This document shows, one piece after another, positions 7,649 to 20,034 of a stretch of DNA of 64,000 bases. The stretch is taken from NCBI RefSeq assembly GCF_003669015.1, contig NZ_CP033069.1:2924501-2988500 (forward strand). Direction: 5' to 3'. A program made the position numbers and the translations under genes. Numbering within the stretch: the stretch's first letter is position 1; every line of letters begins with the position of its first letter. A model generated the notes under the pieces. It was not told the origin of the DNA and did not search any database. It saw nothing but the letters and a program-made list of their open reading frames with translations. The stretch is from Acidovorax sp. 1608163. Lineage in GTDB: Bacteria > Pseudomonadota > Gammaproteobacteria > Burkholderiales > Burkholderiaceae_C.

Positions 7649-7728
7649 TTGGGTGTCTGCGCAAATCGGCGCAACAGGTACAGCGATGGTCGGGCCGCCT
7701 CGCGGCTTTTCTACGACTGCTTGCCTGC
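7649..7728 (+). ncRNA. Candidate nhaA-I-type (Li+) riboswitch leader
   Basis: The leader upstream of the Na+/H+ antiporter gene has a compact conserved-looking core: GGGTGTC, a perfect hairpin TGCGC (7658-7662)/GCGCA (7669-7673), then ACAGGTACAG and GGTCGGGCCGCC. A second hairpin GCCGC (7694-7698)/GCGGC (7702-7706) followed by TTTT could be an expression-platform terminator that ends just before the start codon. From memory the motif and gene context fit the nhaA-I class, shown to sense lithium. I cannot run the covariance model. A TTAAAAT box near 7636 may be the -10 element. Confidence 0.5.
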
Positions 7729-11262: not shown

Positions 11263-12789
11263 TCACCGCCCCTCCACCTCCCACCGCCCCGCCACGTTCT
11301 TCAGCAGCGTGTTCACCGCTGCCAGCCTGCGGCTGCGCACGTCAATCAAACTGCGCTGCGCCGATAGCACCGAGGCCTGGGCGGTGATGACATTGAGGTA
11401 CCCCACGGTGCCTGCGCGGTACTGGTTGCTCACCACATCCAGCGCACGCTGGGCGGCGGCCAGGGCTTCGGTTTGCAGTTGCTGCTCTTGCGCCAGGGCG
11501 GTGGCGGCGGTCAGGTTGTCTTCCACCTCTTGCAGGGCCGTGAGCACGGTTTGGCGGTAGGTGGCGGCGGCTTGTTCGTTGGCGGCGCGGGCAGATTCCA
11601 CTGCAGCCGTGCGGGCACCGCCATCGAACAGCGACAGTGCCAGCTGCGGCCCCAGGGACCAGAACAGGTTGGGGGCGTTGAACAGATTGGACAGCTCCGA
11701 GCCCCGGTACCCCGCCGTGCCCGACAGCGTGAGCGCTGGGAAGAACGCAGCCCGGGCCACACCGATTTGCGCGTTGGCGGCGGCCACGCGGCGCTCGGCA
11801 GCGGCGATGTCGGGGCGGCGCTCCAGCAACTGCGAGGGCAGCTGGGCGGGCACCACGGGTGGCAAGGGCAGCCCGCCAGTGGCGGGCAGGCTGAAGCTGG
11901 CAGGGGCCTGGCCCAGCAGGGCGGCCAGGGCGTGCTCTAGCTGGGTGCGGCTGCTTTCAGATTCGAGCAGTTGCACCTGGGTGGATTTGTATTGCGACTC
12001 GGCCTGCGCCACATCGGCCACCGAGGCCACGCCCGCTTGCTGGCGGTTGCGTGTCAGCTCCCAGCTGCGGTCATAGGCCTGCAGTGTTTCGCGCAGGATC
12101 TGTGCGTTGGCCTCTGCGGCGCGCAACGAAAAATAGGTTTGCGCCACGCTGGCCTGCACCGACAGGCGGGCGGCTGCCAGGTCGTCGGCACTGGCCTGGG
12201 CGCTGGCGCGGGCGGCGTCCACGGTGCCTGCGATGCGGCCCCACAGGTCCAGCTCCCAGCTGGCATTGAGGCCGATGGAATGGCTGGTGCTAATGCGGGC
12301 GGTGCTGCTGCCATCGGCCGCCTGGCTGCCGCTGCGCGCACGCGATGTGCTGGCGCTGGTGCCAAGCGTGGGGCCCTGGCTGGCGCGGCTGCTGGCCACG
12401 GCGGCCTGGGCGGCGCGCAGGCGGGCCAGCGACAAGGCAATGTTCTGGTTGCCGCTAGCGGCCTGCTCTTGCAGGGTGTTGAGCGTGGCATCGCCGTACA
12501 GCGTCCACCACGCGGCGGGCACTTCTGCACCCTGCGGCCCAGCTTGCCCAGCTTGCGCGGGCTGCCAGATGCCGCCTGCGGTGGCGGCCAGGGCTTCTTT
12601 GTAGTGGGCGGGCACGGTTTGCGTGGGGCGCTCGTACCCCGGCTGGGTGCTGCAGGCGGCCAGCACGGTCAGCGCAGATACCGCCAGCAGCGTGGGCACG
12701 CAGCGCAGAGCGGCAGGCATTGCAGAAGAAGGCGACCGGGTGGGTGGTGTCATGGACGGTGTGCCGAATGGAATGGGGGTGGCAGGCAT
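11263..12789 (-). CDS. NodT/OprM-type outer-membrane efflux lipoprotein
   Basis: The outer-membrane channel of a tripartite RND pump (508 aa). It has a lipoprotein signal with LAAC lipobox, then two repeated OEP (TolC-like) domains rich in Ala/Gln coiled-coil helices. Typical segments are ALSLARLRAAQA, SWELDLWGRIAG and ERRPDIAAAERRVAAANAQIGVARAAFFP. ATG 12789 shares a base with the stop of the preceding pump gene (TGATG). Met at 12720 would give a tighter signal peptide and is a real alternative. It is the last gene of the mdtABC-like operon. Confidence 0.9.
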   Translation of the reverse strand: MPATPIPFGTPSMTPPTRSPSSAMPAALRCVPTLLAVSALTVLAACSTQPGYERPTQTVPAHYKEALAATAGGIWQPAQAGQAGPQGAEVPAAWWTLYGDATLNTLQEQAASGNQNIALSLARLRAAQAAVASSRASQGPTLGTSASTSRARSGSQAADGSSTARISTSHSIGLNASWELDLWGRIAGTVDAARASAQASADDLAAARLSVQASVAQTYFSLRAAEANAQILRETLQAYDRSWELTRNRQQAGVASVADVAQAESQYKSTQVQLLESESSRTQLEHALAALLGQAPASFSLPATGGLPLPPVVPAQLPSQLLERRPDIAAAERRVAAANAQIGVARAAFFPALTLSGTAGYRGSELSNLFNAPNLFWSLGPQLALSLFDGGARTAAVESARAANEQAAATYRQTVLTALQEVEDNLTAATALAQEQQLQTEALAAAQRALDVVSNQYRAGTVGYLNVITAQASVLSAQRSLIDVRSRRLAAVNTLLKNVAGRWEVEGR

Positions 12790-15700
12790 CAATCGTTTCC
12801 TTCAAGCGCCGGGGTCGCCGAGGTCGGTGTGGTGGGCGCGTTGAACGCCGTAGGGGCCTGGGGCAAGCCGCCCCGCAGGCGGCGCACGGTGCGCAGCACG
12901 CGCTGGCGCAAGCGGTCCAGCGCCACGTAGACCACCGGCGTGGTGTAGAGCGTGAGCAGCTGGCTCACCAGCAGCCCGCCCACCACGGCAATGCCCAGCG
13001 GCTGGCGCAGCTCGGCCCCGTCGGCGCGGTTGATGGCCAGGGGCAGCGCGCCAAAGATGGCGGCCATGGTGGTCATGAGGATGGGGCGCAGCCGCAGGCT
13101 GCAGGCGCGGTAGATGGACTGCGCAGCCGTGACATTGCCTGCGCGCTGCCGCACCAGCGCAAAGTCAATCATCATGATCGCGTTCTTCTTGACGATGCCG
13201 ATCAGCAAGATGACGCCAATGAGCGCGATGAGCGAGAACTCGGTCTTGAACCACATCAACGCCAGCAGCGCCCCCACCCCGGCCGATGGCAGCGTGGAGA
13301 GGATGGTGATGGGGTGCACCAGGTTTTCATACAAGATGCCGAGCACCAAGTAGATGGTGATGATGGCCGCCAGAATGAGCAGCGGCTGCCCGGCCAGCGC
13401 CGACTGGAACGCCCCCGCCGTGCCGCTGAAGCTGCCGCGAATGCCCACGGGCACGCCCAGCTCGGCCACGGCGTTGTTCACCACGTCGGCCGCCTGCGAC
13501 AGCGACACGCCCGGCGCCAGGCTGAAGCTGATGGTGCTGGCAGGCGTGCCGCGTTCGTGGTTCACAGACAGCGGCGTGTTGGTGGTGGTGATGCGCGCAA
13601 ACGCGGTGAGCGGCACCTGCTGGCCTGCGCTGTTCACGAAGAAGAAGCCGCGCAGCGTCTCGGGGCTTTGCAGGTATTGCGGCGCGGCCTCCATCACCAC
13701 GCGGTATTGGTTGAGGGGGTTGTAGATGACGCCCACCTGCCGCTGGCCAAAGGCGTCGTTCAGGGTGGCGTCAATCTGCGCCATGGTCAGCCCCGCACGG
13801 GTGGCGGCGTCGCGGTCGATGACCAGCGTGGTTTGCAGGCCATAGTCCGACACATCGCTGTTCACGTCCTCCAGCTCGGGCAGTTGCGACAGGGCCTGGC
13901 GGATGCGTGGCTCCCAGGTGCGCAGCTCGGCAATGTCGTCGGCTTGCAGCGTGTAGTCAAACGACGCGCTGCTTTGCCGCCCGCCAATGCGGATGTCGCG
14001 CTGCGGCGACATGAACAGGCGTGCGCCGGGCTCATTCTTGAGCTGCTCGCGCAGCCGCGCAATCACCGTGTCAGAGGATTCTTGCCCCGGCCCGCGCTTG
14101 AGCGTCATGAACATCTGCGCCGCATTGCGCTGCCAGCCGCCGGTGGAGCCAGTGACGTATTCCACCGCCGGGTCGGCCTGCACAATCGACAAAAAGCGCT
14201 GCAGCCGCTGCTCCATGGCCTGGTACGAGGTGGCCTGGTCGGCCCGGATGAAGCCGGAGATGCGGCCCGTGTCCTGCTCGGGCATGAAGCCTTTGTCGAT
14301 GGCGGTGTAGAGGTAGACGTTGAGCCCCACCACCCCCGCCAGCACCAGCAGCAGCACCGGCTGGTGGCGCAGGCACCAGGCCAGGCTTTTGCGGTAGCCG
14401 CGCAGGCCACGGGCCTGCAAGCCATCCACCCACCGCGAGAAACGCGCCCACACACCTTGGCGTGGCGAGGCCGGTGTGGACTTGGGGTGCTTGAGCAAGG
14501 CCGCGCACATCATGGGCGTGGTGGTGAGCGACACCAGCAGCGACACCAGAATGGCCGCCGACATGACGATGGCGAATTCGCGAAAGAAGCGGCCCACGAT
14601 GCCGCCCATGAACAGGATGGGCACGAACACGGCGATGAGCGAGATGCTCATGGACACGACGGTGAAGCCGATCTCGCGCGCGCCATCGAGCGAGGCCTTC
14701 AGCGCCGACTTGCCCCGCTCCATGTGGCGCATGATGTTTTCGAGCACCACGATGGCGTCGTCCACCACAAAGCCGGTGGCAATGGTCAGCGCCATGAGCG
14801 AGAGGTTGTCGAGCGTGTAGCCCGCCAGGTACATCACCCCAAGCGTGCCCGCCAGCGACACCGGCACGGCCACCGCAGGGATGAGCGTGGCGCGCCCGTT
14901 GCGCAAGAACAGAAACACCACCAGGATCACCAGCGCCACGGCGATGAGCAGCGCGTGCTCCACCTCTTTGACCGAGGCACGCAGCGTGGGCGTGCGGTCG
15001 GAGACGATCTCAATGTCGATGGCCGCCGGGATGGACGCCTTCAACTGCGGCAGCATGGCGCGCACGCGGTCTACGGCTTCGAGGATGTTGGCGCCGGGCT
15101 GCTTGAACACCTGCAGCAAGATGGCAGGCTTGCCGTTGGCTACGCCGAAGTTGCGCACGTCCTGCACCGAGTCGGTTACATCGGCCACGTCGGACAGGCG
15201 AATGGCGTTGCCATCCTTCCAGCGCAGCACCAGCGGCGCGTAGTCGGCCGCCACGCGGGCCTGGTCGTTGGCGGCGATCTGCCAGTAGTGGTCTTCACGC
15301 TCCACCGCGCCCAGGGGGCGGTTGGCATTGGTGGTGCTGATGGCGCTGCGCACCTGCTCCAGCGACACGCCGTTGGCCGCCAGCCGCACCGGGTCGAGCG
15401 ACACGCGCACCGCAGGCAATGCCCCACCGCTGACGGAGGCCTGCCCTACCCCTTCGACCTGCGAGAGCTTTTGCGCCAGCACCGTGGAAGCCGCGTCGTA
15501 CATCTGCCCGCGGGTGAGCGAGCCGGATGTGAGCGCCAGGATCATGATGGGCGAATCGGCCGGGTTGACCTTGCGGTAGGTCGGGTTGCTGGGCATGCCC
15601 GTGGGCAGCAGCGTGCGGGCCGCGTTGATGGCGGCCTGCACGTCGCGCGCGGCGCTGTCCACGTCGCGGCTCAAATCAAACTGCAGGGTGATGCTGGTGC

Positions 15701-15962
15701 TGCCCAGGATGGAGCGCGAGGTGATTTCGTTGACCCCGGCGATGGAGCCCAGCGCCCGCTCCAGCGGGGTGGCGACGGTGGCGGCCACGGTGTCGGGGCT
15801 GGCGCCGGGCAGGCTGGCGCTGACGGAGATGGTGGGGTAGTCGACCTGGGGCAGCGGGGCGACGGGCAGGAGGAAGTACGACACCGCGCCCACCAGGGCC
15901 AGGCCCAGGGTGAGGAGCATGGTGGCGATGGGGCGGTGGATGAAGGGGGTGGAGAGGCTCAT
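12789..15962 (-). CDS. mdtC: RND multidrug efflux pump subunit, MdtC-like
   Basis: An inner-membrane proton-driven drug exporter of the RND/HAE1 family, 1057 aa, with the usual 12 helices and two large periplasmic loops (after helices 1 and 7). It starts with the family FIHRPIATMLL segment, and the helix-4 Asp pair lies in the block ending in [12 protein letters not shown]. In MdtABC systems two different RND proteins form a mixed trimer. This is the second of the two, 892 bp downstream of its partner, and that gap is filled by repeats. The downstream channel gene is translationally coupled. Confidence 0.92.
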   Translation of the reverse strand: MSLSTPFIHRPIATMLLTLGLALVGAVSYFLLPVAPLPQVDYPTISVSASLPGASPDTVAATVATPLERALGSIAGVNEITSRSILGSTSITLQFDLSRDVDSAARDVQAAINAARTLLPTGMPSNPTYRKVNPADSPIMILALTSGSLTRGQMYDAASTVLAQKLSQVEGVGQASVSGGALPAVRVSLDPVRLAANGVSLEQVRSAISTTNANRPLGAVEREDHYWQIAANDQARVAADYAPLVLRWKDGNAIRLSDVADVTDSVQDVRNFGVANGKPAILLQVFKQPGANILEAVDRVRAMLPQLKASIPAAIDIEIVSDRTPTLRASVKEVEHALLIAVALVILVVFLFLRNGRATLIPAVAVPVSLAGTLGVMYLAGYTLDNLSLMALTIATGFVVDDAIVVLENIMRHMERGKSALKASLDGAREIGFTVVSMSISLIAVFVPILFMGGIVGRFFREFAIVMSAAILVSLLVSLTTTPMMCAALLKHPKSTPASPRQGVWARFSRWVDGLQARGLRGYRKSLAWCLRHQPVLLLVLAGVVGLNVYLYTAIDKGFMPEQDTGRISGFIRADQATSYQAMEQRLQRFLSIVQADPAVEYVTGSTGGWQRNAAQMFMTLKRGPGQESSDTVIARLREQLKNEPGARLFMSPQRDIRIGGRQSSASFDYTLQADDIAELRTWEPRIRQALSQLPELEDVNSDVSDYGLQTTLVIDRDAATRAGLTMAQIDATLNDAFGQRQVGVIYNPLNQYRVVMEAAPQYLQSPETLRGFFFVNSAGQQVPLTAFARITTTNTPLSVNHERGTPASTISFSLAPGVSLSQAADVVNNAVAELGVPVGIRGSFSGTAGAFQSALAGQPLLILAAIITIYLVLGILYENLVHPITILSTLPSAGVGALLALMWFKTEFSLIALIGVILLIGIVKKNAIMMIDFALVRQRAGNVTAAQSIYRACSLRLRPILMTTMAAIFGALPLAINRADGAELRQPLGIAVVGGLLVSQLLTLYTTPVVYVALDRLRQRVLRTVRRLRGGLPQAPTAFNAPTTPTSATPALEGND

Positions 15963-15998
15963 GGGACGGGCCTCTGGGTTTTGATGTGTTTTGGGGAT

Positions 15999-16044
15999 CT
16001 AGCGCTTACGTAATAAGCGCTATCAGCTATTGAATTAGTAGCAT
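15999..16044 (+). repeat. Short interspersed palindrome, left of the foldback element
   Basis: TAGCGCTTA and TAAGCGCTA form the palindrome, followed by the AGCTATTGAATTAGTAGC tail. It lies 37 bp upstream of the mdtC-like start codon, in its leader. A sister copy (16803-16845) sits on the other side of the 0.65-kb foldback. Confidence 0.85.
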
Positions 16045-16123
16045 ATGGAGTGGCACCCAGCCGTTCGGGCTGAGCTTGTCGAAGCCTGGGCTTGCTCGTT
16101 GATTTAGCAACATGCCTCTGCCC

Positions 16124-16777
16124 AGGGCGGGTGCCGGGATGTGCCCCCGGCGGGGCACCTTCTTTTCTTGCGTCGCCAAGAAAAGAAGGCAAAAGAAGGC
16201 GACCCCACTGTCTGCGTCCCCAGCGCTGCGCACTGGGGCAACCTGCGGTGCTCGCGTCCAGCGGGGTCTCGCTCAAACTCGCTGCGCTCAAACAGTCGCG
16301 ATCCCTGATCCGCTGGCCGCTGCGCTCCTCGGCACATACAGAGGGGATGGAACGGCCGAACAGCCAACATCCCTTCGGGCCATCGCTGCGCTCGGCCCCA
16401 TTTCGCGGGCGCATGCGCCCCGCGCTGGGCGCAGCGCCGATCAAGTCGAGCGTAGCGAAGACCCGTGTGGCTGCTGGGCTGTTTGGATGTTCGGCTGCCC
16501 ATCCCCTGTGGCTGCGCCTGCGGCGGGGCGGTTGCGGGGTGGCACGCGCGTCGGAGCGCGCGTGCTTCGTGAACTGACTCGCTGCGGCTGTCTGAACGGA
16601 GCTGCTACGCAGCGCAGTGAGTTCCGCAGCGCCCCCCGCAACCGCCCCGCCGCAGGTTTGCCCCGCAGCGCAGCGCAGGGGCCGCAGACTTGGGGTCGCC
16701 TTTTCTTTGCTTACTTTCTTTTGGCGAAGCAAAAGAAAGTGAGTCGCCCGCCGGGGCGATAACCCGGCCCCCGCCCC
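16124..16777. repeat. 0.65-kb foldback element inside the efflux operon
   Basis: The two ends form an imperfect inverted repeat of about 80 bp. The left end runs from GGGCGGGTGCCGGGAT to GGCGACCCC (16205). The right end runs from GGGGTCGCC (16693) to ACCCGGCCCCCGCCCC. Each end also carries its own perfect hairpin (CTTCTTTTCTTG/CAAGAAAAGAAG at 16159-16188; ACTTTCTTTTG/CAAAAGAAAGT at 16713-16740). Inner segments also match in reverse (for example CCCAGCGCTGCGCACTGGGG against CCCCGCAGCGCAGCGCAGGGG), so almost the whole unit can fold on itself around 16450. The Arg/Ser-rich open frames inside it look like composition artefacts. No transposase is present. Confidence 0.85.
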
Positions 16778-16802
16778 ATGCAAATGCATGAAGCCAAAAG
16801 TG

Positions 16803-16845
16803 CCTCCAGCGCTTATAGGAAAAGCGCAAACAGCTACAAAAACAG
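16803..16845 (+). repeat. Short interspersed palindrome, right of the foldback element
   Basis: CTCCAGCGCTTATAGG, AAAAGCGC and CAGCTACAAAAAC match the repeat consensus. It lies just past the stop of the mdtB-like gene and has the same orientation as the copy at 15999, so the foldback is bracketed by direct copies. Confidence 0.85.
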
Positions 16846-16854
16846 GAGCGCCCA

Positions 16855-19800
16855 TCACACAGTCCCCCTGCGCGCCCGCCACCGCTCAGCCCACCCCTCA
16901 AACGTCAAATAAATCACCGGCGTAGTAAACAGCGTGAGCAACTGACTCACGATCAGCCCCCCCACCATCGTCACCCCCAGCGGATGCCGCAACTCACTGC
17001 CCACACCCCCACCCAACATCAACGGCAACGCACCCAGCAAAGCCGCCAACGTCGTCATCAAAATCGGCCGAAACCGCAGCAAACAGGCTTGGTAAATCGC
17101 CTCACGCGCAGGCAGCCCCTGATCCCGCTGCGCCTCCAGCGCAAAGTCGATCATCATGATCGCGTTCTTCTTGACGATGCCGATCAAGAGCACGATGCCA
17201 ATCACCGCCACGATGTCTACATCCAGCCCCGCCATCCACAACGCCAACAGCGCGCCAACGCCCGCAGAGGGCAAGGTGGAAAGGATCGTGACCGGATGGA
17301 TCGTGCTCTCATACAGCACCCCCAACACGATGTACATGGTGACCACTGCGGCCAGGATGAGCAGCAAAGTGTTCGACAACGACGCCTGAAACGCCAGCGC
17401 CGCGCCCTGGAAGTTGGTGTCCACCGACAGCGGCAGCAACCCAGCCGCACGGGCAGCGGCTTGCTCTGCCTGGATGGCTTTGACCGCATCGCCCAGCGCC
17501 ACGCCCGGCGCGGTGTTGAACGAGATGGTGGCCGCAGGCAGCTGGCCCACGTGGTTCACCGCCAGGGGCATGGGGCGCTCTTCCAAGCGGGCGACGGACG
17601 ACAAGGCCACAGGCTTGCCCGCGCTCGATGTGACGTAGATGCTGTTCAAAGCCTCGGGCCCCAGCTTGAACTGGGGCGCCACCTCCAGCACCACGCGGTA
17701 CTGGTTGGACTGAGTGAAGATGGTGGAGATGAGCCGCTGGCCAAAAGCGTTGTACAGCGCGGTGTCGATGCCCGCCACCGTCACGCCCAGGCGGCTGGCC
17801 TGGGCGCGGTCAATCTGCACAAAGGCCTGCAGGCCCTGGTTTTGCAGGTCACTGGCCACATCGGCCAGTTGCGACAGGGCGCGCATGCGCTGCACCAGAT
17901 CGGCGGTGCTGGTCTGCAGCTGGGCCATGTCGGGCGAGGAGATCAGCAACTGGTACTGCGTGCGCGCCACGCGGTCTTCGATGGTGAGGTCTTGCACCGG
18001 CTGGGCATACAGGCGAATGCCTGCCAGATCGCGGGTGTCATCGGCCAGGCGCCGCAGCACCACGGGGGCGCGGTCGCGCTGGGCGTGGGGCTTGAGGTCA
18101 ATGAGCAGGCGGCCGGTGTTGAGCGTGGTGTTGGCGCCATCCACACCAATGAAGGACGACACGCTTTTCACGGCCGGGTCTTGCAGAATGCGCTCGGCCA
18201 GTTGCTGCTGGCGCTCGGCCATGGCGGCGAACGAGATGGACTGGTCAGCCTCGGTAGTGGCCTGCAGCGTGCCGGTGTCTTGCACCGGAAAGAAGCCTTT
18301 AGGCACCACCAGGTACAGCACCACCGTCAGCACCAGCGTGGCGCCAAAGGCCAGCCAGGTCAGTCCCCGGCGGTTCAACACCCATTGCAGCGCACGGCCA
18401 TACAGGGCGATGGTGCGGTCAAAAAAACGGCCGGTGGCCTGGTACAGGCGGCCGTGGCTTTCTTCGGGCGTGTGGCGCAGCAGGCGGGCGCACAGCATGG
18501 GCGTGAGCGTGAGCGACACCACGGCCGACAGCAAGATCGCCACTGCCATGGTGATGGCGAATTCATGGAACAAGCGCCCCACCACATCGCCCATGAACAG
18601 CAGCGGAATCAGCACCGCGATGAGCGAGATAGTGAGCGAGATGATGGTGAAGCCAATTTGCTTGGCGCCCTTGAGTGCGGCCTGCAGCGGTGGCTCGCCC
18701 TCTTCCACATAACGGGCAATGTTCTCGATCATCACGATGGCGTCGTCCACCACAAAGCCGGTGGAAATCGTCAGCGCCATCAGCGTGAGGTTGTTGATGG
18801 AAAAGCCCGCCAGGTACATCACGCCAAACGTGCCCACCAGCGACAGCGGCACCGCAAAGCTGGGAATGAGCGTGGCCGACGCACTGCGCAAAAACACAAA
18901 GATCACCGCCACCACCAGGCCAATGGCCAGGGCCAGCTCGACCTGCATGTCTTTGACCGAGGCGCGGATGGTGGTGGTACGGTCGGTGAGCACCTGCACG
19001 TCCATCGACGCGGGCAGCGTGCTTTGCAACTGGGGCAGCAGGGCTTTGATGCGATCAACCGTGTCGATCACGTTGGCGCCGGGCTGGCGGCGGATGTTGA
19101 GGATGACGCCGGACTTGGAACCCGTCTCTGGCGTGCCCGCCCAGGCGGCCAGGCGGGTGTTTTCGGCATCGTCCACGGTTTGCGCCACATCGCGCAGGCG
19201 GATGGGGTTGCCGTTTTTGAAAGCGAGGATCAGGTCGCGATATTCCTGCGCCGACTGCAGCTGGTCGTTGGCGTCGATGGTGGAGGCGCGCGCGGGCCCG
19301 TCAAAGCCACCCTTGGCCTGCTTGACGTTGGCCGCTGCGATGGCGCTGCGCACGTCTTCGAGCGTGAGACCCAGGTTGGCCAGCGCGGTGGGGTTGGCCT
19401 GGATGCGCACCGCCGGGCGGCGCCCGCCCGCAATGGCCACCAGCCCCACACCGTTGACCTGCGAGAGCTTGGGCGCCAGGCGGTTTTCCACCAAGTCGTT
19501 CAAGCGAATGACCGGCAGCGAGGGCGAGGTGATGGCCAGCGTGAGCACGGGCGCATCTGCCGGGTTGACCTTGCTGTACAGCGGCGGCATGGGCAGGTCG
19601 TTTGGCAGCAGGTTGCTGCCTGCGTTGATGGCCGCCTGCACCTGCTGCTCGGCCACGTCCATCGACATATCGAGCGCAAAGCGCAGCGTGATGACCGAAG
19701 CCCCGCCCGAGCTGGTGGAGGACATTTGCGACAGGCCCGGCATCTGGCCAAACTGGCGCTCCAGCGGTGCGGTGACGTTGGACGTCATCACATCGGGGCT

Positions 19801-19962
19801 GGCGCCGGGGTAGAGCGTGGTGACCTGGATGGTGGGGTAGTCCACCTCGGGCAGGGCCGAGATGGGCAGCAGCCGGTAAGCCAGCAAGCCCGCGATGAGC
19901 AGCGCCACCATCAACAGCGAGGTGGCGATGGGGCGCAGGATGAAGAGGCGGGACAGGTTCAT
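16855..19962 (-). CDS. mdtB: RND multidrug efflux pump subunit, MdtB-like
   Basis: The first of two RND/HAE1 pump genes in this operon (1035 aa, family length ~1040). It starts [17 protein letters not shown], has 12 predicted helices and two porter loops, and carries the Asp pair of helix 4 in [12 protein letters not shown] and the helix-10/11 [15 protein letters not shown] block. It should form the mixed inner-membrane trimer with the MdtC-like protein and take energy from the proton gradient. It follows the adaptor gene by 72 bp. After its stop come 892 bp of repeats before the partner gene, although MdtB/MdtC genes are normally adjacent. Confidence 0.92.
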
Positions 19963-20034
19963 GACGACAAGGGCAATGGTGGCAGCGGCAACAACTGGGC
20001 CTGCGCAGCGCGGTGAGGGAAGGCGCGCGACCGG

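Follow-up and report, generated by a model that had tools for sequence, protein, structure and literature searches.

Dispersed repeats of bacterial genomes are usually read either as mobile elements, whose sites change, or as decaying fossils, whose sequence drifts in place. Here we describe a foldback element of about 0.7 kb in Acidovorax sp. 1608163, situated between mdtB and mdtC, two permease genes of a resistance–nodulation–division (RND) pump, within a window (the whole stretch of DNA analysed) of 64,000 nucleotides (contig NZ_CP033069.1, positions 2,924,501 to 2,988,500). In this case, the sites of the repeat are stable across species, and its sequence is apparently homogenised, recombined and even inverted in place.

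Correia/NEMIS, ERIC and RUP repeats are non-coding, intergenic and multi-copy and have terminal inverted repeats, as does the Acidovorax element. The latter is, however, larger, going by the generally known sizes of these repeats, is composed of two unlike arms, and occupies orthologous sites with exchange of content and with no target duplication found. The same three groups are named among bacterial intergenic repeats in PMC3110155, where the BRE family is also described: these are GC-rich repeats located mainly between genes in Betaproteobacteria, Comamonadaceae among them, with one copy in Acidovorax sp. JS42 (PMC3110155). The Acidovorax element shares these general features, but BRE, compared by description only, is 75–91 bp long, often tandem and variable in number (PMC3110155). 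Repetitive extragenic palindromic sequences (REPs) arranged as inverted doublets, known as REPINs, are thought to be mobilised by REP-associated tyrosine transposases (RAYTs) (PMC3116915). Inverted REPs facing inward, an extragenic position and a hairpin-folding spacer with paired changes are common to the Acidovorax element and to REPINs as described in that source (PMC3116915). At the same time, the spacer of REPINs is short (a unit of about 70 bp), whereas mostly 0.55–0.8 kb of structured DNA lies between the Acidovorax ends; both REPs are present in only 24 of 76 Acidovorax copies, which number 4–10 per genome, and no cognate RAYT was identified in the window genome. Identity with REPINs fails on spacer length and linked RAYT, and the label is therefore wrong; the foldback may have moved in a REPIN-like manner. 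Ribosomal RNA operons under gene conversion are likewise dispersed copies at fixed loci, homogenised within a genome by recombination (PMC8022953), but the Acidovorax unit is non-coding and modular, with arms exchanged separately, and can be inverted. No description of this element was found in the literature searched, subscription papers being outside its reach.

We consider it rather probable that Acidovorax has here a foldback repeat, non-coding and non-autonomous, that has been inherited in place, homogenised by recombination and tolerated at mdtB–mdtC. It consists of two different arms, inverted relative to each other and made of strong hairpins, with a short core between them; inward REP ends occur in some lineages. 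Comparison of genomes revealed a family of such copies that occupy common sites, exchange their arms, are in part inverted or internally deleted, and tend to lie at gene ends. Most likely, the sites persist and their content is exchanged by recombination.

The window genome contains six near-full-length copies; the five others are 83–89% identical to the window copy, so that the possibility, allowed for in the first-pass annotation of this DNA, that no other copies exist does not hold. Matches were found in 44 of 47 Acidovorax genomes at 1e-20, in 97 of 299 genomes of the GTDB family (47 of 126 sampled genera) at 1e-15 and in 9 of 276 genomes of the class at 1e-10, these nine comprise the window genome itself, two others of its family and six in which the matching pieces measure ~50–190 bp. 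A pattern scan of named genomes gave at least 120 stretches; among the 80 listed, 68 belong to Acidovorax, 5 to Ottowia, 2 to Paracidovorax and 5 to unclassified bins. Phage or plasmid origin was rejected: matches numbered 0 among 50,697 phage records and 3 among 72,556 plasmid records. All element counts are lower bounds, since the window copy served as the query and the candidates scored per genome numbered 11 for the genus, 2 for the family and class and 40 for the set of ten genomes described below.

Ten genomes were hand-picked from the 47, nine with one or two contigs and one with six; G000 denotes the window genome. At least 76 copies, 4–10 per genome, were merged by hand from the matches and taken with ~3 kb of flank. 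Full copies are represented by two unlike inverted arms of ~250–300 bp with outer ends directed outward, mostly 0.55–0.8 kb and at most about 0.8 kb between arm ends. Eight of the 76 are single-arm copies, none of which has a second arm within about 3 kb. The arms fall into type A, type B and a further B-like type. One copy of genome G029 (L071) carries a long tandem run of GCTGTTTG units between its arms. As for location, all seven copies on contig G003:C1 lie within 8–30% of the contig and seven of the nine on G016:C1 within 16–30%, while those of the other genomes look more spread.

Comparison of flanks placed 64 of the 76 copies in 15 site groups, each common to two to six of the ten genomes and the mdtB–mdtC site among them; together with 12 single copies, some of which have one flank in common with another site and could be that site after rearrangement, this makes 27 site groups. 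G018 carries the element at eight of the nine sites found in G027, with a flank identity of 94%. Site s01 is represented by an AGCGCTT..AAGCGC box alone in G018, G027, G026 and G045, and site s04 is empty or without recognisable arms in G017, G044, G021, G014, G037 and G012. In G014 and G044, genomes of 6.8–7.5 Mb, a diverged version of the foldback (L295, L296), without REP ends by eye, is located at s01.

The mdtB–mdtC site was surveyed in the 25 of the 47 genomes in which this mdtC was detected at 1e-120. Full two-arm copies were found in 14 genomes, copies cut by a contig end in 2, internally deleted copies in 3 (gaps between the genes of 286, 417 and 478 bp) and scars in 2 (gaps of 171 and 292 bp); the element is absent from 4. 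By eye, the scars retain portions of the outermost terminal repeats, as would be left by a deletion across a hairpin. In the element-free genomes, mdtB and mdtC lie virtually next to each other (separated by 27 bp in three, overlapping in one), which agrees with the first-pass view that the element splits two RND subunits normally lying side by side. That annotation had further proposed a device changing the ratio of the subunits. An attenuator specific for the pump and setting the MdtB:MdtC ratio would accord with the position inside the operon and with the presence of the element, whole or partial, in 19 of the 25 genomes, but the family occurs at 26 other site groups, mostly convergent, the content of the mdt site is swapped as elsewhere, and arms are absent there from 6 of the 25 genomes. 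The pump-specific hairpin was rejected as the principal explanation because of these 26 other groups; a device peculiar to the pump was not borne out, being very improbable, and the pump site is not singled out among the sites.

Exchange of content was assessed with arms longer than 190 bp. The nearest arm outside the own element (n = 130) belongs to the same genome in 62 cases, to another genome and another site in 58 and to the same site of another genome in 10; shuffling of labels among elements (2000 times) gave means of 12 (maximum 29) for the same genome and 5.4 (maximum 17) for the same site. The same site of another genome provides a counterpart for 110 arms; this counterpart is the best match in 10 cases, and 51 arms are closest to one from their own genome. 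Five genome pairs of our own choice gave 21 orthologous pairs, in 1 of which the orthologue is the closest of both genomes' copies, a measure that favours single-arm copies. Arm A at site s10 of G026 and that at s11 of G018 are 99.1% identical, with flanks of these genomes averaging 87.8%; since this sets the best pair against a mean, the example is illustrative only. The single arm of site s05 is of type A in G018, G027 and G046 and of type B in G029 and G012. Such ectopic recombination in a bacterial genus would be measurable at 4–10 natural loci per genome.

Comparison of G000 with G029 shows in-place inversion at sites s04 and s07, where the spacers are collinear: identity is 88.5% at both sites in inverted orientation versus 76.7% and 79.6%, respectively, in direct orientation. 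Inversion was thus found at two of five sites and was absent at s00, s01 and s13. In the better orientation, orthologous elements of 11 chosen pairs are 85.6–92.0% alike overall.

The rarity of same-site best matches (10 of 130) and the emptiness of s01 and s04 in some genomes would also suit an active mobile element that re-inserts at hot-spots, for example at AGCGCT boxes or REPs near gene ends, and is not inherited in place. We regard this as improbable: the common occupancy in G027 and G018 with similar flanks, the likeness of orthologous elements given above, the partial state shared by the mdtB–mdtC copies of G000 and G029, in which a REP is present on the mdtC side only, and the scars and internal deletions at the mdt site, which point to decay of old copies, all argue against it.

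In the window copy, the foldback core extends from CATGCC to GCATG over ~680 bp (about 16111–16790); these outer ends are common to the aligned copies and, by eye, to the diverged copies of site s01. Two inverted arms make up the core, arm A (16104–16350, plus strand, outer to inner) and arm B (16497–16800, minus strand, inverted relative to arm A), each opening with a GGGCGGG..GCCGGG terminal repeat and a T-rich/A-rich hairpin; the middle comprises ~150 bp. As search queries, the two recovered A-type and B-type arms among the 76 copies of the ten genomes. Pairing between the arms involves 16103–16165 with 16736–16798 (71%) and 16182–16241 with 16658–16717 (72%). The left outer terminal inverted repeat, AGGGCGGGTGCCGGG (16124–16138, plus strand), pairs with the right one (16763–16777, minus strand); the consensus comprises 12 pairs, 10 of which are conserved in 33 or all 34 of the aligned copies, the remaining two in 31 and 25. 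Terminal inverted repeats, a feature of miniature inverted-repeat transposable elements (MITEs), are accordingly present, the outer repeat ending in GCCGGG. Arm A includes the hairpin TTCTTTTC (16158–16189; 13-nt stems, 100% complementary), several pairs of which change on both sides among copies; arm B includes the hairpin TTTCTTTTG (16710–16743; 14-nt stems, 93% complementary), also with paired changes, and a GC hairpin GCACGCGCG..CGCGCGTGC (16542–16565), in place of which other copies have GCATGGGCG..CGCCCATGC or further paired variants. Around the GC hairpin lies a perfect 23-bp inverted repeat (16517–16539/16634–16656, 100% complementary).

A foldback with structured ends had been placed at 16124–16777 in the first pass; its arms, inner segments and local hairpins are indeed there, but the core reaches beyond these limits, and a REP at 16061–16084 lies outside the core. 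The large hairpin envisaged for a read-through transcript is consistent with the predicted fold, the energy of which is far below that of shuffled sequence: -452.5 kcal/mol versus -338.8 +/- 8.2 for the minus strand and -464.2 kcal/mol versus -344.6 +/- 8.4 for the plus strand (z ~ -14 on both), with none of 20 dinucleotide shuffles as low on either strand. The pairing is therefore well above what shuffling yields, an outcome on which the annotation had made its proposal depend. The consensus fold of 34 aligned copies with arms A and B contains 171 pairs, 35 of which show changes of both partners in one or more copies; the conserved pairing comprises long-range arm–arm helices and local hairpins.

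The REP of the window copy, CCGTTCGGGCTGAGCTTGTCGAAG (16061–16084, plus strand), faces inward and starts 78 bp from the GCCGGG end; a right-hand REP was looked for in this copy and not found. Among the 76 copies, an inward REP (at most 5 mismatches in 24) stands beside 74 of 152 element ends, and at least one end is so furnished in 50 copies; an outward REP was found beside 1 of 76 elements, and control stretches gave 2 of 455. The REP start and the GCCGGG end are 78 bp apart at 20 of the 22 ends of G000 and G029; in the other eight genomes, 38 of 52 ends have a distance of 71–79 bp. At no more than two mismatches, CCGTTCGGGCTGAGCTTGTCGAAG occurs 104 times in G000, 197 in G029, 90 in G024, 20 in G046 and 9 in G027, once each in G018, G014 and G044, and not at all in G008. 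In the REP-poor genomes, the elements are mostly without REPs, yet present; because they persist there, the REPs are lineage-specific ends and are not required.

Two Y1_Tnp transposase genes are present in the window genome, one of them among GTAG-type repeats. The transposase gene at L032 (G000:C1:1006082-1006444) is flanked on both sides by GTAGGTCGGGTTA repeats and resembles a RAYT accompanied by GTAG-type REPs of its own, distinct from the foldback REP. The same genome contains six copies (L327–L332) of a MITE-like repeat of ~148 bp with ends CCTGATTAGC..AATCAGG, which holds an inverted pair of the foldback REP; these are located at G000:C1 2107128, 2069507, 1243047, 1332027, 1416910 and 2786843. 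The 8-bp repeats flanking them agree at 8 of 8 positions at three loci, 7 of 8 at two and 6 of 8 at one, as the best over a few boundary choices and with no control.

Gene orientation at the 76 copies, based on gene calls by our own codon-score script and not a standard gene finder, is convergent in 47, co-directional in 29 and divergent in none; by site group, 18 of 27 are convergent and 9 co-directional. Among the 54 adjacent gene pairs of the window, 7 are convergent and 6 divergent, and 224 other pairs, a background biased by geometry, include 13 convergent, 52 divergent and 159 co-directional. In Escherichia coli, cruciform-capable inverted repeats are enriched at gene ends, and longer inverted repeats with short spacers are mostly parts of intrinsic terminators, according to PMC6060812. 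The orientation pattern of the Acidovorax copies fits a function at gene ends and fits equally a repeat tolerated only away from promoters, since promoter avoidance alone could yield it. A functional 3'-end element, i.e., a bidirectional terminator or an RNase III site insulating neighbours and kept by selection on RNA structure, seems rather unlikely to us. It would explain the convergent bias and the maintenance of hairpins through paired changes, but a scan for intrinsic terminators at 15900–16900 (1001 bp) gave 2 sites versus 1.1 +/- 1.0 in shuffles, not above chance, no promoter-like site was found in the same interval, and the four genomes without the element at mdtB–mdtC do without it. 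If the bias towards gene ends does reflect function, this would be an unusually large 3'-end element.

The tests of strandedness bear on the same explanation from both sides. Over the whole element, the pairs common to the folds of both strands include 23 G-U and 20 A-C, i.e., no polarity, and arm A also lacks asymmetry (|z| of the strand difference 0.2). For arm B, by contrast, G-U pairs number 28 versus 8 A-C (15 versus 7 in an RNase P control of 27 of 30 fetched loci, three having been dropped for length), and the inner-to-outer strand of this arm folds better than column shuffles explain (|z| 5.3; RNase P 3.1). Much of the difference in arm B comes from alternative helices and not from covarying G-U pairs. 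This asymmetry counters the view that the paired changes arise at the DNA level alone, symmetrically on the two strands; template-directed correction of imperfect palindromes could yield paired changes without selection. The G-U/A-C measure separates RNase P from symmetry only weakly, and the paired changes may reflect structure in DNA or in RNA. A known RNA family was rejected: no Rfam match above the gathering score was found in the element, the best weak match having 20.5 bits versus 168, and nhaA-I, located elsewhere in the window, was the only family to exceed its score.

Open reading frames of 216 aa (plus strand) and 307 aa (minus strand) are present in the foldback, and stops over the 34 copies number 45–91 in all six frames, versus about 166–182 in mononucleotide shuffles, which might suggest that the foldback encodes proteins. 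The probability of this is practically negligible, since the two large frames overlap on opposite strands, the best frame is open in only 12 of 34 copies, and the depletion of stops affects both strands similarly, an effect expected of hairpin-rich GC sequence. Protein coding was rejected accordingly.

The course of events behind an inherited and homogenised repeat may be outlined as follows. The first scatter of copies would be due to a transposition-like process on folded single-stranded DNA, REP/REPIN-like or other, after which the copies would have been inherited in place. Homologous recombination or gene conversion between copies, through arms and terminal repeats, would homogenise them, and imports from related strains by horizontal recombination may add to the exchange. 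Inversion of the element would follow from recombination between its two inverted ends, and internal deletion from slippage across the hairpin. The mdtB–mdtC copy is most likely a tolerated old insertion that may weaken mdtC or uncouple it from mdtB, and no dedicated regulator. It also serves as a warning that a repeat splitting an operon may be old and conserved without being such a regulator.

A number of observations weigh against this account. No transposition event was seen in the genomes compared, and no target-site duplication was detected by eye beside occupied and empty sites, the exact insertion point being unclear. The copies do not exceed about 0.8 kb, too short for a transposase in addition to the arms, and the eight single-arm copies lack a second arm within about 3 kb; no autonomous relative is known, and none with the same ends, as for a MITE, occurs among the 76 copies. 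Elements exist in G018 (8 copies) and at s01 of G014 and G044 with one REP match per genome, and no foldback-type REP lies within 1.5 kb of either Y1 transposase gene in the window genome. In-place inversion was found at none of the six sites compared, of eight shared, between G018 and G027. Pairing is not specific for the element: A–B partners have a similarity of 0.678 versus 0.685 for non-partners of the same genome, and B–B partners 0.752 versus 0.842 for B arms of other elements in the same genome, so that pairing kept within one element was rejected. The 35 paired changes are not independent events, because the copies are related and exchanged; the proposed gene conversion is deduced from similarity, and the strand asymmetry of arm B would be more in keeping with a functional RNA than with a passive repeat.

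Tentatively, conserved gene-end sites, older than the species, may serve as stations, each holding an exchangeable and invertible pair of hairpin arms; the arms would circulate by recombination among stations and species, and arm B would possibly be a structured RNA read from the core outward. If this is true, the element would represent a class of large structured intergenic elements with position kept and sequence renewed.

In the window, the cluster mdtA–mdtB–mdtC–outer-membrane gene is located on the minus strand. The mdtB gene (16855–19962) lies upstream of the element and the mdtC-like RND permease gene (12789–15962) downstream; the spacer (15963–16854) comprises the 892 bp given in the first-pass annotation. 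MdtA is above its model cut-off and MdtB above the NCBIfam MdtB equivalog cut-off (1590 versus 1584 bits); the best model for the second permease is MdtC, yet its score is under the cut-off (1496 versus 1774). The order on the plus strand of the gap is the left AGCGCTT..AAGCGC box (16002–16021), the inward REP, the foldback core and the right box (16808–16827). The left box is a separate dispersed repeat; by eye, a similar box occurs at site s01 of other genomes where the element is missing. The stretch of the right box is repeated elsewhere in the genome. Two direct copies of a palindrome had been noted as bracketing the element; the boxes correspond to them and have the same direction by eye. 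Two very long open frames on the plus strand, one antisense to mdtC (12720–16013; 1097 aa) and one antisense to mdtB (16984–20016; 1010 aa), are most likely shadow frames of GC-rich genes. A candidate nhaA-I riboswitch, above the gathering score, was found at 7651–7702 (plus strand) of the window.
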